Assembly (NCBI GenBank): GCA_947166015.1 | Contig: CAMVCQ010000006.1 | Location: forward strand, 1-56,930 | Length of the DNA stretch: 56,930 nucleotides | Direction: 5' to 3' | DNA from: an uncultured Lachnospiraceae bacterium | GTDB taxonomy: Bacteria; Bacillota; Clostridia; Lachnospirales; Lachnospiraceae | Shown: positions 6,114 to 48,449 of the stretch, in pieces | Numbering within the stretch: position 1 is the first letter of the stretch | Layout of the letters: each line of letters opens with the position of its first letter | Made by a program: the position numbers and the translations under genes | The notes under the pieces: model-generated | Seen by the model: the letters and a program-made list of their open reading frames with translations, nothing else | What the model was told of the DNA's origin: nothing | Databases searched by the model: none

Positions 6114-6165
6114 CAAAGTTAAGTGTCAAAAAAATATGTTTTCAGTATGAATATCGGGAAGAATA

Positions 6166-6296
6166 GTGTGAAAAATCACACTGATATGCTGATTTTTCAC
6201 ACGGCTATTTGTGCCGGAGCGTCACAAATAGCCACTGATGGCAGACGAGAACTGGATGTTCTCGTCGCCACTCCGTCGCTACGCTCCGGAATGGAG
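6166..6296 (+). ncRNA. Structured leader RNA, copy 1 (candidate cis-regulatory element)
   Basis: Hairpin A: 6166-6178 pairs with 6190-6202 (13 bp, 11-nt loop). Hairpin B follows with no gap: 6203-6213 with 6223-6233 (11 bp, 9-nt loop CCGGAGCGT). After a 10-nt spacer comes hairpin C: 6244-6252 with 6258-6266 (9 bp, 5-nt loop), extended by TGGC/GCCA across a bulged A at 6243. The B loop (6214-6222) is perfectly complementary to 6281-6289, just before GGAG (6293-6296), allowing a pseudoknot next to the Shine-Dalgarno. A second copy with compensatory changes precedes glf. The function is unknown. Confidence 0.6.
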
Positions 6297-6302
6297 ATAA
6301 CT

Positions 6303-6335
6303 ATGGACAAAAAATCACAATGGAAATGGAGATAG
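6303..6335 (+). CDS. Ten-residue leader ORF (MDKKSQWKWR)
   Basis: ATG lies 6 bases after the GGAG that ends the structured leader, in the position the glf start occupies after the second copy. It encodes ten residues with two tryptophans and stops 13 bases before the glycosyltransferase ATG, in another frame. The glycosyltransferase itself has a poor ribosome site, so translation of this mini-ORF may feed it by reinitiation. It is too short to prove coding. Confidence 0.35.
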   Translation: MDKKSQWKWR

Positions 6336-6348
6336 TCTTTGAGTAAAA

Positions 6349-7029
6349 ATGAAAAATAATGTAGAATTAAGCATCGTCATGCCGTGTCTGAATGAGGAAA
6401 AAACAGTCGGACACTGCGTAGACGAAGCGAGAGCATTTATAGAAAACAATGATCTTACCGCCGAGATAATAGTTGTAGACAATGCGAGTACCGATGCTTC
6501 CGTAAGTGTAGCAACAGCTCATGGCGCTACTGTGATACGCGAGGACAGGCCGGGATACGGCAGAGCCATCCGCAGAGGTCTGCGCGCTGCAAAAGGAAAT
6601 GTCATCATTATATGTGATTGTGATATGACATACGACCTGTACAACCTTGAGAGTATATATGAGCCTCTGAAAAAAGGTTCCTGCGATGTGATGATGGGCT
6701 GCAGAAAAACCACGGAACCGGGTGCGGCAAGCTTTACTCACCGCATAGGTGCAGGAGTCCTCTCGGCACTCGGAAGAATGCGATATCATGTAAATGTCAA
6801 AGACTTCCACTGCGGACTTCGTGGTCTGACATCCGAGGCAAACCAAAAGCTTAGGCTTAGGACAAAAGGAATGGAGTTTGCCACCGAGATGATAGCGGAG
6901 GCATCCAGGAACTCACTTACCATCGGTCAGACAGAGGTACCTTTGAAAAAATGCCCCTACGGACGCGAATCCAAACTGCGTACGATCCGCGACGGCCTCA
7001 GACACCTGTTGTATATAGCTTTTTGTTGA
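6349..7029 (+). CDS. Family 2 glycosyltransferase (polyprenyl-phosphate type)
   Basis: GT-A fold enzyme that would move a sugar from a nucleotide donor, probably to polyprenyl phosphate or a cell-wall glycan, at the cytoplasmic membrane face. Seen: LSIVMPCLNEEKTV at residues 7-20, IIVVDNASTD, RPGYGRAIRRGLRAAKG, the metal-binding DCDMTYD, DFHCGLRG, and RTIRDGLRHL near the C-terminus. At 226 aa it ends where many relatives continue into C-terminal membrane helices, so it is the short form or a shortened version. The start is a compromise, with no strong ribosome site visible. The leader carries the structured element 6166-6296. Confidence 0.85.
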   Translation: MKNNVELSIVMPCLNEEKTVGHCVDEARAFIENNDLTAEIIVVDNASTDASVSVATAHGATVIREDRPGYGRAIRRGLRAAKGNVIIICDCDMTYDLYNLESIYEPLKKGSCDVMMGCRKTTEPGAASFTHRIGAGVLSALGRMRYHVNVKDFHCGLRGLTSEANQKLRLRTKGMEFATEMIAEASRNSLTIGQTEVPLKKCPYGRESKLRTIRDGLRHLLYIAFC

Positions 7030-11065: not shown

Positions 11066-11471
11066 AATATGATATGTATCGGGGTGGCATTTGTCACCCT
11101 TCTGTCACAACAAATGCCGTTCTATCGTACTTTGGTGGATTTGTCAAGTGTTTTTTTATTGACACTCACATATGAAACCCACATATGCCGTCCATCATGG
11201 GATCTTGAATGAGGGTAAATTAAGCTGTACCGCCATCTAAAGTGTGGAGTCTTCCAACTGTTTTGCTGTCATTTTTTTCACGTTTTCATACTTAATAAAA
11301 GCGGATAATATGCCAATATGATAAAAGCCGCTGATTTCTCAACGGCTTTAAATGTTGCTTTAAAAGAAATCTTTGTCGGGCGTGCCTACTCCCGAATCTC
11401 TTTGTAGCCTTACGGCGTGTGGCGACACGAAGTTTCCACCTCAAAGACATTCTTCTATTATCATATTAACA
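11066..11471. other. Intergenic region with hairpins and an orphan promoter
   Basis: No convincing gene in ~400 bases. Contents: a hairpin at 11087-11119 (GGCATTTGT/ACAAATGCC, 15-nt loop) after the ZIP gene, possibly a terminator though without a U-run. A minus-strand promoter-like pair follows: TTGACA at 11147-11142, 17 bases, TAGAAC at 11124-11119. A GAAA-capped hairpin lies at 11324-11349. A GC-richer stretch at 11370-11450 differs from its AT-rich surroundings and may be the tail of a vanished mobile element; I could not identify it. Confidence 0.35.
11324..11349 (-). terminator. 11-bp hairpin with GAAA tetraloop (probable terminator)
   Basis: Read on the minus strand, AAAGCCGTTGA and TCAGCGGCTTT pair over 11 bp around a GAAA loop, followed by further Ts. 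It lies ~120 bases beyond the stop of the PBECR-like gene and probably ends that transcript. Confidence 0.5.
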
Positions 11472-17189: not shown

Positions 17190-17807
17190 TTAGTCTTCCG
17201 GCAAGGTGGCTTTTCCGTATTTCTTAGCCTTGTCAAAAAATGTGCTTTTTGCCATACCACACTCCTCAGCGGCCTGTTCTATCGTTAATTCCTTACGTTT
17301 CCAACGCTGATATATTTCATGAAAGTTATCTGGTAAAGGCTCCGGTGCTCGTCCGAAGCGAACCCCACGAGCCTTTGCTGCAGCAATTCCCTCCGCCTGT
17401 CGTTGACGAATAGTCGTTCTCTCGTTCTCCGCAACGAAGGAAAGTACTTGGAGAAAGATATCCGATACAAGCGTACCGATTAGGTTCTTGTCACGCCGGG
17501 TATCCAGTATCGGCATATCAATCACAACGATATCTACTTTTTTGACTTTTGTGATGACACGCCACTGTTCGAGGATCTCGTCGTAGTTCCGACCAAGACG
17601 ATCTATACTTTTGATATAGATAACATCCCCCTCTTTTATCCGCTTCATCAATCGTTTGTACTGTGGCCGATTAAAGTCCTTTCCCGATTGCTTGTCGACA
17701 TAGACATTCTCTTCTGGTACATCCATCTCTTCCAGTGCAATCATCTGTCGATCTTCATTCTGACATTGAGTGGATACTCTCACATATCCGTAAACTGTTG
17801 AGCTCAT
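17190..17807 (-). CDS. Serine site-specific recombinase (resolvase/invertase family)
   Basis: Start at 17807 has AGGAGGGAC upstream; ~205 aa, the size of small invertases and resolvases. The catalytic Ser is in YGYVRVST at residues ~5-12. The arginine-bearing block DRLGRNYDEI follows near residue 70, and AENERTTIRQRQAEGIAAAKARG forms the E-helix region around residues 118-140. A C-terminal helix-turn-helix (IEQAAEECGMAKSTFFDKAKKYG) would bind the inverted repeats. The gene sits beside the promoter-bearing segment at 17011-17184, so its likely job is DNA inversion. A Tn3-type resolvase role is less likely because no transposase is near. Confidence 0.9.
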   Translation of the reverse strand: MSSTVYGYVRVSTQCQNEDRQMIALEEMDVPEENVYVDKQSGKDFNRPQYKRLMKRIKEGDVIYIKSIDRLGRNYDEILEQWRVITKVKKVDIVVIDMPILDTRRDKNLIGTLVSDIFLQVLSFVAENERTTIRQRQAEGIAAAKARGVRFGRAPEPLPDNFHEIYQRWKRKELTIEQAAEECGMAKSTFFDKAKKYGKATLPED

Positions 17808-17902: not shown

Positions 17903-18180
17903 CATCTCATGTCTTCGTCAATTCACCTATCAAATTCACTTCGTGAATTTGCCCATGTGTTTCTATATTTTAATCCATCACCTGTGATGGGAGATCGAAA
18001 ACGAACCTGCAAGCAGGTTCGCTGAAAAAACGCCTAATGGCGTTTTTACCCCGGTGGGTTCGGATTATGACCATTGCGGGTGATGGGAAGTCGAACAAGG
18101 TGAATTGTCTTCGTCAATTCACCTATCAAATTCACTTCGTGAATTTGCCCATGTGGGGGCGATTCGTGACCATCACCTGT
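17903..18180. repeat. Direct repeats, hairpins and partial tRNA-Gly copies
   Basis: Two perfect 50-bp direct repeats lie at 17910-17959 and 18106-18155, each containing the palindrome CAAATTCAC-TTC-GTGAATTTG. Other hairpins: 18003-18022, 18025-18048 (A/T-flanked, terminator-like) and 18099-18123. Bases 18076-18096 reproduce the 3' end of the adjacent tRNA-Gly gene (acceptor and T arm) with one inserted base; 17985-17999 matches part of it again. Such tRNA 3' copies usually mark past integration or duplication at a tRNA attachment site. This fills the gap between recombinase and tRNA. Confidence 0.6.
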
Positions 18181-18223: not shown

Positions 18224-18294
18224 AGCGGGTGATGGGAATCGAACCCACGTGTTCAGCTTGGAAGGCTGACATTCTACCATTGAACTACACCCGC
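18224..18294 (-). tRNA. tRNA-Gly (anticodon TCC)
   Basis: On the minus strand, GCGGGTG pairs with CACCCGC as a 7-bp acceptor. The D arm is GTTC/GAAT with loop AATGGTA. The anticodon arm is TCAGC/GCTGA with loop CTTCCAA, reading TCC. The T arm is GTGGG-TTCGATT-CCCAT. Length is 71 with discriminator U. CCA is not encoded. Confidence 0.97.
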
Positions 18295-23694: not shown

Positions 23695-24933
23695 TCATAT
23701 TTCAAGCGCTCTGTCAACTATTGCATCAATGTTATAGTATTTGTATTCAGCGAGTCGACCGAGAAGAGTAAGCGCCGGGATCTCGTCGGCCAAAGCTTTG
23801 TATTTTTCGTAGAGAGCGTCGTTCTCAGGGTTGTTGATCGCATAGTACGGGATCTCGCCTTTTGCGCCTGTGTATGCAAACGGGTATTCCCTGATGATCG
23901 TTGTACCTGATCTGTCATCCTCGCCGGTCATTGCTTTGAACTCCGTTATCCTGGTGAAATCCTCGCTTACCGTGTAGTTTACCACAGCGTGACTCTGAAA
24001 CCTGTCTTTGTCAAGATGTTCAAATCTAAACTCAAGTGATCTGTACGGAAGGTGCCCGAATCTGTAATCAAAAAGCTCATCGATAGCTCCGGTAAAAATG
24101 ATACGACCGTCAAATGGGACGAAATCCGCTGTTTCGGCGGTTCCGGTCGATGCATTTATATCAGAAACAGCGTTACCGGTTGAGTCTGAAGCAGTCATAG
24201 TCTCAACAAAGCTATCAAGATCATTTCTGATCGATACTTTGACATCAGCGTCCGGATCTATCCTCAACACATCCGACGAGTCAGTGTTTGCGATGAAAGA
24301 GATGTTTTCGTGTGCGAGCATTTTTTCAAAAAGAGGCGTGTACCCGTTTTTTGGCATACCCTGATATGTGTCTTGAAAATACCTGTTATCGCGCGATATC
24401 ACCACAGGGACGCGGCCCGATACCGCCGGATCTATCTCCTCCGGAGACTTGCCCCACTGCTTCATGGTGTATTTCAAAAAAATGTTCTCATAGACATAAT
24501 TAGCTATTTTTTTCAAGCCCTCATCGTCAGCCTCACGAAGCTTGAGGATGGGAACCCGCGCGCCCTCGCCGAATCTGTCTGTCAAAAGCTTTTCGAGCCC
24601 GACTGCTTCATCAGGAAAAACCATCTCAAGAGTGTTTAGGTTAAACGGCACAGGGATCTCCTCGCCGTAGACATTGGCGACAACCTCATGTGAATAATCA
24701 TACCACTCGGTAAAACGCGACAAAAAGTCATATACCCGCTTTATGTTTGTGTGAAAAATGTGCGGCCCGTACTTGTGGACCGTGATCCCGTACTCGTCTT
24801 TTTCATCGTAGCAGTTTCCGCCGACTCCCTCGCGACGGTCGAGAACAAGGACTTTTTTCCCGGCTTCTGCCAGACGCCTTGCAGCGGTCGCACCCGCCGG
24901 ACCGGCACCTATTATGATTGCATCGTAAGTCAT
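23695..24933 (-). CDS. glf: UDP-galactopyranose mutase
   Basis: FAD enzyme converting UDP-galactopyranose to UDP-galactofuranose, the donor for galactofuranose in surface polysaccharides; cytoplasmic. The start at 24933 follows GGAGG by 5 bases; ~412 aa. Seen: the dinucleotide motif IIGAGPAGATAARRLAEAG at residues 5-23, GGNCYDEKDEYGITVHKYGPH split around the active-site region, PVPFNLNTL, and YTMKQWG. The C-terminal block ITEFKAMTGEDDRSGTT has the usual Arg/Glu residues. Oddity: a Ser/Thr/Ala-rich insertion (TASDSTGNAVSDINASTGTA) at ~residues 240-262 where relatives are compact. Its leader is the second copy of the structured element. Confidence 0.93.
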   Translation of the reverse strand: MTYDAIIIGAGPAGATAARRLAEAGKKVLVLDRREGVGGNCYDEKDEYGITVHKYGPHIFHTNIKRVYDFLSRFTEWYDYSHEVVANVYGEEIPVPFNLNTLEMVFPDEAVGLEKLLTDRFGEGARVPILKLREADDEGLKKIANYVYENIFLKYTMKQWGKSPEEIDPAVSGRVPVVISRDNRYFQDTYQGMPKNGYTPLFEKMLAHENISFIANTDSSDVLRIDPDADVKVSIRNDLDSFVETMTASDSTGNAVSDINASTGTAETADFVPFDGRIIFTGAIDELFDYRFGHLPYRSLEFRFEHLDKDRFQSHAVVNYTVSEDFTRITEFKAMTGEDDRSGTTIIREYPFAYTGAKGEIPYYAINNPENDALYEKYKALADEIPALTLLGRLAEYKYYNIDAIVDRALEI

Positions 24934-24938
24934 ATTAT

Positions 24939-25066
24939 CCTCCATGACGAGCACTTGTGCGAGTCACCGCATGCGTGCTTGAAGCACGCATGTCGGATCA
25001 AAGGTTATTTGTGCTCGTCGCAAATAACCGTGTGAAAAATCAGCATATCAATGTGATTTTTCACAC
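24939..25066 (-). ncRNA. Structured leader RNA, copy 2 (candidate cis-regulatory element)
   Basis: Read on the minus strand. Hairpin A: 25066-25054 with 25042-25030 (13 bp, same sequence as copy 1; the 11-nt loop differs by one base). Hairpin B: 25029-25021 with 25011-25003 (9 bp, loop CGACGAGCA). A 10-nt spacer follows. Hairpin C: 24992-24984 with 24978-24970 (9 bp, 5-nt loop), extended by CCG/CGG around a bulged A at 24993. GACGAGCA of the B loop is complementary to TGCTCGTC at 24953-24946, just before GGAGG (24943-24939). Hairpin C and the loop pairing differ from copy 1 in sequence but keep pairing. Confidence 0.6.
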
Positions 25067-40831: not shown

Positions 40832-40906
40832 GTGATTACCGCTTTTTCGAAAGAATCCCGGTATATAATTTTTCAAATTATACGCTATCATTTTTCAAAT
40901 TATTTC

Positions 40907-40988
40907 TTGACAAAAATTTTGAAACATGATATTATGCACATCGAACGAGGCAAAGGCGTCTCAGAGGAAACTCTGGGATGTCTTTGTC
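40907..40988 (+). promoter_or_regulatory. Promoter and 5'-end hairpin leader of asnB (nitrogen leader, copy 1)
   Basis: TTGACA at 40907-40912, 17 bases, TATTAT at 40930-40935. Shortly after the expected start, 40949-40966 pairs with 40971-40988 (18 positions including G-T pairs, GAAA loop), then comes TATTTTTAT. This is terminator-like and sits at the extreme 5' end of the RNA. Nearly the same sequence precedes glnN (48332-48413), where a base change in the right arm improves the pairing. Confidence 0.75.
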
Positions 40989-41015
40989 TATTTTTATACT
41001 TGGAGGTAGAAAAAA

Positions 41016-45650: not shown

Positions 45651-47672
45651 ATGAGTCGTAATATAAAGATTATTGGAAAAGGAATTCTTGTATGCATAAT
45701 TTGCATCTGTGCATTTTTGATTACAGCACAGATTTCACAAGCGAGAGCTCCAAAGATTTACTGGAGGAGCATCCATCTTGGTCTGAATGCAACTTTTGAT
45801 ATAACGGTTTCATATCTTCCTGAAGGTGCTGCATTGATTTTTAAGAGTAAAAATAAAAAAATTGCGAAAGTTGATTCAAAAGGAAGGGTGACAGGAAAAA
45901 AAGTTGGAAAAACATCTATAATAATCAAGTATAAAAAAGACGGCAAAACATACGATGTCGGCGAATCAAAAGTTAAGGTTCATAATGCGTTTATGAACAA
46001 AGAAGTTGCTGTAGCTATGAAAAAAACAGTGATACAGCTATATGGTAACGAAGGATATTATACATCAAATCCTACAAAAATTGACGATTATGTATATGAT
46101 TTTTACGGTTATACGGGCTGTGATGACTCGTTTTTGGATGAGGTCAATTACAAAAACAAAAAAGCAAGCTATACATATGTTTCGTCTGACAAATCAAAGC
46201 TTAAAATATCAAAAAAAGGGAAGCTTTATTATTCAAAAGGAACGGGAAAAGTCAGAATTTCGATTATTGAAACCTACAAAAAGAAAAAAAGAACGATGGG
46301 TTCTTTTGTTGTGAATCTTGCAAAAACTGTTTGGGACGGAAAGAAAAATGTAAATGGAAGCACGAATCAGGTTTATGACATTTTTAAGCATACACCCTAT
46401 GTCAGCAAAGAAAAAGTTGTTTTTGATAATGATGCCGATAAAAAAGGTGAGGTTACTTTTCTTGAAAACAGCAAAAAAGAATGGAACGGCAGAATCGGGT
46501 TTAACAAAACAGGTAAAACAGGTTGTCGAATTTATGCATATAATTATAAAAAGAAAAAATACGAGTCAAAACCCTTTGCGTGTATCAAATTTAATGTTAA
46601 AAATGTCAAGACCGTATCTGAAATAAAGATACTTGAGGAAAAATCCGAAAAAAGCTTTTCAAAGATAAAATCGTTAAAAAAATCATACAATAACATGGGA
46701 AGCGGCGAGGATGATTATTTTGACGGAATTTGTGATTTCAAATATTATGTTTATCAGGACAGTTATAATTATACCGGCGGATACGGTATAACAAGCTCTG
46801 ACCCTGGGATTGCATCTGTATCGGAGGTTATGTATGAAGAATACGAAGGACTTTTCGATGAAAAAACCGGATATTGCGGGTATTTTTTAATCAAGCCGCA
46901 TAAGCCGGGGTCATGCACGATAACGGTAGAGGGAAACGGCGCAAGTACATCATTTGAATATCACTTTTCGGATTATCCGATTGATGGCGATTTTGATATG
47001 TACTGCGGAACCTATACAAGTAAAGAAAAGCCTGATAAATCAAAGTTCAGATTTGAGATTTCAGATGATAACGCCATGGGATTAACAAATTGTAATTTGG
47101 ATGTCGACATATGGCGTTTAGAAGAGCACAATGATTACGCTGATCCTGAATTGTGGTGCTTTGGCGCTAAGCTTATTGTGAATTGTTACCCGCCTGCAAA
47201 AGGCGGTTTATGCACACTAAGTGTGTTCTATGGTGATGAGGAACTCGGACATTTTGAACTTCCTGTGTATAAGTGGGATTTCACATCAAAACCGCTTCAA
47301 TACGAGGTGGTAGAAAATACGGGAGTTGAGTTTGAACTGACAAACTGTAGTGCGCACTACTTTTCGTCTGATTATAATGATAATCGTATTACTTATAATG
47401 TGAAATTTGACAGAGATAAATCAAAAGCAAAATATGTGTATATCTTTGGAATACGGGATTGGGAATTATCCGAGTACATAGACGAGGCTAAAAAAAGGTT
47501 TGCAAATCCCGACCCGGAGAATTTAAATATGATGCACACATCACCGTACGACATTTCGAATTACTTTTTTGAAAAAAAATACAAAGATGATAACACCGTT
47601 TTCGTGTTCACAGACGAGAACTGCCAATATGTGGGACACGCGGTTGTGAAATTCAAGCTTGACGCGGCATGA
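45651..47672 (+). CDS. Large secreted protein with N-terminal Big2 domain
   Basis: 673 aa; ACGGAGGA precedes the ATG by 9. N-terminal signal or anchor helix (GILVCIICICAFLITAQ). A Big2 domain at ~40-115 (LNATFDITVSYLPEGAALIF, KIAKVDSKGRVTGKKVGKTS). The middle is lysine- and tyrosine-rich with beta strands. A second Ig-like segment sits near 350-430 (GYGITSSDPGIASVSEVMY, KPGSCTITVEGNG). No anchor motif at the C-terminus. Lies 54 bases after the BlaI gene on the same strand, so it may be a target of that regulatory pair. Function likely surface binding; not recognised further. Confidence 0.75.
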   Translation: MSRNIKIIGKGILVCIICICAFLITAQISQARAPKIYWRSIHLGLNATFDITVSYLPEGAALIFKSKNKKIAKVDSKGRVTGKKVGKTSIIIKYKKDGKTYDVGESKVKVHNAFMNKEVAVAMKKTVIQLYGNEGYYTSNPTKIDDYVYDFYGYTGCDDSFLDEVNYKNKKASYTYVSSDKSKLKISKKGKLYYSKGTGKVRISIIETYKKKKRTMGSFVVNLAKTVWDGKKNVNGSTNQVYDIFKHTPYVSKEKVVFDNDADKKGEVTFLENSKKEWNGRIGFNKTGKTGCRIYAYNYKKKKYESKPFACIKFNVKNVKTVSEIKILEEKSEKSFSKIKSLKKSYNNMGSGEDDYFDGICDFKYYVYQDSYNYTGGYGITSSDPGIASVSEVMYEEYEGLFDEKTGYCGYFLIKPHKPGSCTITVEGNGASTSFEYHFSDYPIDGDFDMYCGTYTSKEKPDKSKFRFEISDDNAMGLTNCNLDVDIWRLEEHNDYADPELWCFGAKLIVNCYPPAKGGLCTLSVFYGDEELGHFELPVYKWDFTSKPLQYEVVENTGVEFELTNCSAHYFSSDYNDNRITYNVKFDRDKSKAKYVYIFGIRDWELSEYIDEAKKRFANPDPENLNMMHTSPYDISNYFFEKKYKDDNTVFVFTDENCQYVGHAVVKFKLDAA

Positions 47673-48300: not shown

Positions 48301-48331
48301 AAGTATGTCAAGCATTTTTTCAAATTATTTC

Positions 48332-48413
48332 TTGACAAACATTTCAAAACATGATATTATGCACTTCGAATGAGGCAAAGGCGTCTCAGAGGAAACTCTG
48401 GGACGTCTTTGTC
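48332..48413 (+). promoter_or_regulatory. Promoter and 5'-end hairpin leader of glnN (nitrogen leader, copy 2)
   Basis: TTGACA at 48332-48337, 17 bases, TATTAT at 48355-48360. The hairpin is 48374-48391 with 48396-48413 (GAAA loop), then TATTTTTAT. It is nearly identical to the asnB leader from ~20 bases before the -35 through the U-rich tract; the right arm reads GGACGTC here versus GGATGTC there, a pairing-preserving change. Confidence 0.75.
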
Positions 48414-48449
48414 TATTTTTATGTTTATAGAAAAATGGAGGGAAAAACT

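Follow-up and report, generated by a model that had tools for sequence, protein, structure and literature searches.

A probably mobile, structured RNA repeat in the gap between Shine-Dalgarno sequence and start codon, at unrelated genes of Lachnospiraceae and relatives

The window, meaning the whole stretch of 56,930 nucleotides analysed here, comes from an uncultured Lachnospiraceae bacterium and carries two leaders of the same build, one upstream of a GT2-type glycosyltransferase ORF (6349-7029, + strand; copy 1) and one before the ORF named glf, for UDP-galactopyranose mutase, in the preliminary description of this DNA (23695-24933, - strand; copy 2). Both consist of three hairpins, A, B and C, and in both the loop of hairpin B pairs over about 9 bp with a strand immediately 5' of the Shine-Dalgarno (SD) sequence. 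In copy 1 (+ strand), hairpin A (6166-6178/6190-6202) has 13 bp, an 11-nt loop (CACTGATATGC) and the left terminus GTGTGA, and hairpin B (6203-6213/6223-6233) abuts it with 11 bp and the 9-nt loop CCGGAGCGT at 6214-6222. A 10-nt spacer separates B from hairpin C (6240-6269), the 9-bp core of which (6244-6252/6258-6266) closes the 5-nt loop TGGAT and is extended by 3 bp (GGC/GCC) beyond a single bulged A. The partner of the B loop, ACGCTCCGG, lies at 6281-6289, followed by the replacement SD that the element itself carries (GGAG, 6293-6296) and an ATG at 6303. The flank to the left (6155-6165, +) is purine-rich and contains the SD-like CGGGAAGAA with TA at its end, which is the left boundary throughout the family. 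Copy 2, on the - strand, repeats this order, with hairpin A at 25030-25066 (11-nt loop, one base different from that of copy 1), hairpin B at 25003-25029 (loop CGACGAGCA), hairpin C at 24967-24996 (9 bp, 5-nt loop, bulged A), the pseudoknot strand TGCTCGTC at 24946-24953 facing GACGAGCA in the B loop, the replacement SD GGAGG at 24939-24943 and the ATG of glf at 24933-24931. Hairpin order, spacing, loop sizes and the complementarity between B loop and pre-SD strand are thus present in both leaders as the preliminary description had it. Its designation of copy 1 as the leader of the GT2 gene needs amending: the copy does lie upstream of that gene, but the adjoining ATG at 6303 opens a 10-codon ORF (MDKKSQWKWR, 6303-6335, +), which overlaps the probable GT2 SD, and the GT2 start is at 6349. 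The best NCBIfam match of the GT2 ORF is to AglJ-like glycosyltransferases, under the cut-off of that family.

Several further features were recorded in the window. A skipping-rope RNA (RF02924, 52.6 bits), listed as an sRNA, is found at 11368-11449 (-). A small serine recombinase (PF00239) is encoded at 17361-17795 (-) near a tRNA gene (18224-18294), and an exact 50-nt direct repeat, possibly att-like, occurs between the two at 17910-17959 and 18106-18155. A second direct repeat, of 107 nt and 94% identical, is located at 40891-40997 and 48316-48422.

Both leaders fold far better than dinucleotide-shuffled versions of themselves (z = -7.5 for copy 1 and -6.1 for copy 2), with none of 200 shuffles folding as well. 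The covariation analysis relied on an alignment of 36 diverse copies taken from other loci and genomes, in which 87.5% of the cells in the named helices are standard pairs, and two-sided changes occur in 21 pairs (109 cells). The covariation score for the whole structure was 0.178, compared with 0.085 for shuffles (0/500 reached the observed value) and at most 0.079 for slid registers. The helix between the B loop and the pre-SD strand is paired in 95.7% of cells, with two-sided changes at 6 of its 9 pairs. An alignment-free test with 28 distinct loops gave a pairing score of 7.97 between loop and own pre-SD strand, 5.27 when strands were swapped between copies and 4.13 when loops were shuffled. 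Wobble pairs, considered as a guide to the transcribed strand, number 17 G-U versus 7 A-C in the pseudoknot; a similar excess is not seen in hairpins A, B and C. The covarying helices and the long-range pairing, first proposed from two copies, are therefore backed by the 36-copy covariation and by the own-versus-swapped comparison, which supports a structured leader RNA with a real long-range pseudoknot. A candidate anti-SD strand 3' of hairpin C that would sequester the SD was rejected, since it scored 2.67 with its own partner and 2.63 when swapped, and that helix is just 66% paired. No named family had been recognized for this RNA at the outset, and none has emerged: Rfam (release 15) contains no family that matches the element, whether in the window at the gathering or a relaxed threshold or in six related loci. 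A scan of the leader for promoters and terminators returned three weak promoter-like matches and zero terminators.

The two leaders, presented earlier as twins, do share their anatomy, but they are two among about 45 copies dispersed in the genome to which the window belongs (G000; 2.1 Mb, 130 contigs, 98.5% complete), counting distinct places and including partial copies. (Other G-numbers below denote further genomes searched, C-numbers contigs of G000 and L-numbers the loci collected.) Five of the copies in G000, on different contigs, are 100% identical across 133 nt. The repeat measures about 135 bp, with a range of roughly 115-170. Window copy 1 represents type 1 and window copy 2 type 2; in other versions hairpin C is extended, and there is also a short subfamily. 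Members of the short subfamily (C42:7673-7764, L038; C38:17246-17342, L033) have the left end ATGTGAAAAATC, a tiny B loop and no pseudoknot, so the pseudoknot appears dispensable for some versions; this subfamily occurs in tandem in C42, and its left end reads ATG-TGA immediately 3' of the native SD. In four other copies (L034, L098, L099, L159) hairpin A alone or both A and B are missing, the loss falling at helix borders, and these copies are still sited at a ribosome-binding site (RBS); they may represent truncations, hairpin deletions or a subfamily with hairpin C only. One copy in G000 (L031; C2, about 46327-46552, - strand) is interrupted within hairpin A by a separate, nested MITE of about 226 bp, the inverted ends of which are GTTACTATTCACGGG/CCCGTGAATAGTAAC and which shows what appears to be an 8-bp duplication (GATTTTTC).

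A search of 61 genomes (G000 and relatives) found the element in 31, and it is also present in many sequence records under the names Lachnospiraceae, Roseburia, Eisenbergiella, Acetatifactor, Lachnoclostridium, Eubacterium and others. Cultured carriers with one copy or more include Bacterium C-53 and Lachnospiraceae bacterium 10-1. An order-wide sample contained 20 carriers among 294 genomes, distributed over 10 of 131 genera and two families, and G000 was the sole carrier in a phylum-wide sample of 398 genomes. Neighbouring genera can be either copy-rich or empty, and such a patchy spread is the distribution expected of a mobile element. Viral contigs, by exact-pattern search, and the plasmids searched yielded no element. 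Three faecal records labelled 'Bacteriophage sp.' (MT837007, MT838414, MT836788; L367-L369) contain it; they are probably bacterial chromosome, by eye encoding an MBOAT acyltransferase, FeoB and enolase. None of the loci read contained an extended, autonomous version sharing these ends.

Copies were gathered by the pattern of hairpins A and B only, which is blind to position and to downstream sequence. Nevertheless, a same-strand SD and then an ATG follow 116 of the 123 complete copies, and in 100 of those 116 the next ORF encodes at least 50 aa or runs to the end of the locus. Of the seven exceptions, four arose from reading the palindromic hairpin on the reverse strand and three have altered ends. 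The association with 5' leaders, proposed as a check in the preliminary description, is accordingly strict. The distance from element SD to ATG is 5-6 nt in 83 of 100 copies. In 115/134 copies (86%) an SD-like 4-mer occurs within 16 nt on the left, compared with 20% of random windows; this flank ends in TA in 111/135, after which the element begins with GTGTGA in 106/113. To the right, TA occupies positions -4/-3 of the ATG in 64% of cases versus 16% of ordinary genes from the same loci. The usual boundaries are hence SD...TA on the left, with insertion 0-5 nt after the SD, and TANTATG on the right; TA is found on both sides in most copies, and the native spacing was fitted with TA counted either once or twice, which is compatible with a TA target duplication and equally with TA belonging to the element. 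Because the left flank is SD-like and the right side offers SD, ATG and TA, the element can be placed between the native SD and the start codon. Four copies (L001, L020, L065, L268) are positioned directly 3' of another copy's SD, which also fits RBS targeting. Inert repeats scattered between genes had been named as the outcome that would speak against a leader function; the copies are indeed dispersed and, on our reading, mobile, but they are confined to translation-initiation regions. An in-frame N-terminal extension starting from the left-end GTG was considered and rejected, as it is open and in frame in only 20/113 copies (4/51 non-redundant) and is not conserved.

Empty sites were sought in orthologues from other species. 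Leaders of argH and serS were fetched across the genus, and a concatenated search with ten genes provided usable orthologues for hrcA, trxA, ilvB, flgF and a response regulator. The relatives' argH and serS genes have an ordinary leader with a single SD and no element. For argH, the leader reads GGCGGTACGACATG in relatives, while that of G000 reads GGCGGTATA, then the element, then TTAATATG (...GGAGGATTAATATG). The full element was absent from the orthologues at all seven genes; the flgF leader of G012 retains an element-like 3' remnant. At hrcA, every species shown has the CIRCE operator 5' of the site, and only in G000 is it followed by the element. Copies identical over 133 nt at unrelated genes, together with relatives that lack the element at the same genes, point to a mobile repeat. 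One insertion is shared by three species (L076, L088, L089), and there identity is 98.6-100% across 142-161 nt of the element but 87-92% across the neighbouring 300 coding nucleotides. The higher identity of the element suggests constraint and selection in place, although this is one locus, and slow evolution could also reflect gene conversion. Two of these three species have an extra hairpin in the B loop.

Taken together, we consider it quite probable that the element is a mobile, non-coding, structured repeat of about 135 bp that is specific for translation-initiation regions and enters them in coding-strand orientation, 3' of the SD and 5' of the start codon; the movement itself we infer from the comparison of sequences. 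The preliminary description had instead drawn on the two surface-glycan genes to propose a cis-regulatory switch, in which pairing between B loop and pre-SD strand opens or closes the SD on a ligand or protein signal. The strict leader placement, the strong covariation of a pseudoknot so close to the SD (2-3 nt) and the better conservation of the element than of neighbouring coding sequence at one shared site would all suit such a switch. However, the genes behind the copies have little in common: NCBIfam names include addB, an OmpR-family response regulator, hrcA, serS, wecB, fabG, ilvB, argH and flgF, trxA is also among them, and 89 downstream proteins fall into 126 Pfam families, none matched by more than two proteins. 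With functionally unrelated genes downstream, a pathway-specific ligand is unlikely. Of the features that define riboswitch and leader classes, the element thus displays a covarying 5'-leader structure and no coherent downstream function. Identical copies at unrelated genes, orthologues without the element and the chance-level score of the SD-sequestering strand also argue against the switch, which we regard as unlikely, and the link to glycan genes is not supported, the two leaders being two of some 45 copies in the genome. An old host leader that spread by gene conversion or segmental duplication alone, without transposition, would account for the homogeneous sequence within a genome and for the insertion retained in three species; it is nonetheless very improbable given the unrelated flanks, the precise boundaries, the orthologous genes without an element and the patchy distribution over two families.

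The kind of mobile DNA involved was approached through candidate enzymes. Near-identical non-coding copies at unrelated loci and empty orthologous sites are what characterizes a MITE, but no terminal inverted repeats were seen, a comparison by eye giving no match between the left end TAGTGTGAAAAATC and the reverse complement of the right end TAATCTCCATTCCGG. Derivation from an IS200/IS605-type (Y1 HUH) element, as a MITE or a PATE/REP-like form, would make the SD the cleavage site and the hairpins the single-strand signals for end recognition, in line with the occurrence of SD-like GGAG(G) both at the right end and in the flank on the left, the strand-specific insertion and the subterminal hairpins. 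Yet the Y1 transposase domain (PF01797) was not detected in G000 despite its identical, recent copies, although at 98.5% completeness the gene may have been lost or left unassembled. The domain occurs in 10 of 39 genomes of the genus and is missing from copy-rich ones (G000, G002, G012, G016, G025, G032), and insertion 0-5 nt past the SD is not at a fixed distance; we regard this origin as unlikely. A SINE-like retro-element, the RNA 3' end of which primes at the SD via GGAGG and leaves 5'-truncated copies stopping at hairpins, would explain the four copies in which A, or A together with B, is missing up to a helix border. Its probability appears slight, since no reverse transcriptase (RVT_1), of the kind that a group II intron, retron or DGR would supply, was found in G000 or in the copy-rich G012, G015, G016, G025 and G028, the left end is sharp in most copies (TA|GTG), and the truncations may be hairpin deletions. 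A cassette mobilized by a serine recombinase is not supported: PF00239 is present in G000 and missing from the copy-rich G002, G300 and G091.

For the mobile repeat that we favour, the following course of events is proposed. Inserting on the coding strand, the element would come to lie between the native SD of a gene and the ATG, displace that SD about 135 nt upstream and replace it by its own terminal SD at a spacing of 5-6 nt; because the element ends in an SD of its own, the gene keeps one. In the mRNA, the insert is predicted to form three hairpins and, by pairing of the B loop with the strand lying 2-3 nt 5' of the new SD, a pseudoknot, which most likely packs the insert and keeps the new SD at a defined, ribosome-accessible position. 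The target is most likely chosen by the likeness of the end-to-end junction GGAGATTA-GTGTGA to the region GGAGG..TANTATG between RBS and start, the junction GGAGATTAGTGTGA acting as a putative mimic of that region, and the intermediate may be circular or arise by strand exchange.

Short repeats with some of these properties have been reported in other bacteria. The BOX, RUP and SPRITE repeats of Streptococcus pneumoniae, as far as described in the portion of the source considered here (PMC3049150), are likewise short, dispersed, highly structured, modular intergenic repeats of similar size that are thought to be parasitic; they are found in clusters, pseudogenes and regulatory sequences, and the inverted repeats of RUP match IS630-Spn1. 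In that portion no restriction to the RBS is described, whereas the present element is confined to the SD-ATG gap and has a replacement SD and a covarying pseudoknot. Prokaryotic MITEs (review PMC10969869) resemble the element in being small mobile repeats that do not code for protein and are probably mobilized in trans, but the present element has no visible terminal inverted repeats, a TA duplication is possible, and no source transposase was found; the text of that review nowhere mentions Shine-Dalgarno, ribosome-binding site or start codon. The TAACTGA direct repeats of marine Beggiatoaceae (PMC4679880) are tandem 7-mers that are similarly oriented, concentrated several nucleotides upstream of start codons and associated with unrelated genes, most of which have no SD; in contrast to the present element, they have no three-hairpin fold and are not inserted after a native SD. 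A search of the open literature yielded neither an RBS-targeting repeat nor a paper on this element, and an earlier description in the subscription journals, most of which lie outside that scope, or in bioRxiv preprints, all of which do, is possible. Pseudoknotted translational riboswitch leaders are a further point of reference, as in these a loop-to-pre-SD pseudoknot forms near the SD in the 5' leader. The present element differs in being mobile, on our reading, in preceding dozens of unrelated genes and in having no Rfam match.

For mobile DNA, here in some gut bacteria of the Lachnospiraceae and relatives, the few bases separating SD and ATG make an unusually precise target. Dispersed repeats usually tolerate many intergenic sites, while here even core genes such as serS, trxA and argH carry the element. 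A repeat that replaces the SD and is confined to the SD-ATG gap in one orientation would represent mobile DNA with an adaptation to the translation apparatus. A bolder and rather doubtful possibility is a mobile translational regulon, in which a novel enzyme class inserts the element exclusively at RBSs via the RBS-mimicking junction and the pseudoknot puts dozens of genes under shared translational control; if true, transposition would rewire translation genome-wide. The copies also constitute a natural experiment, in which one structured leader is placed on dozens of genes and the element-free orthologues are the controls for its effect on translation.
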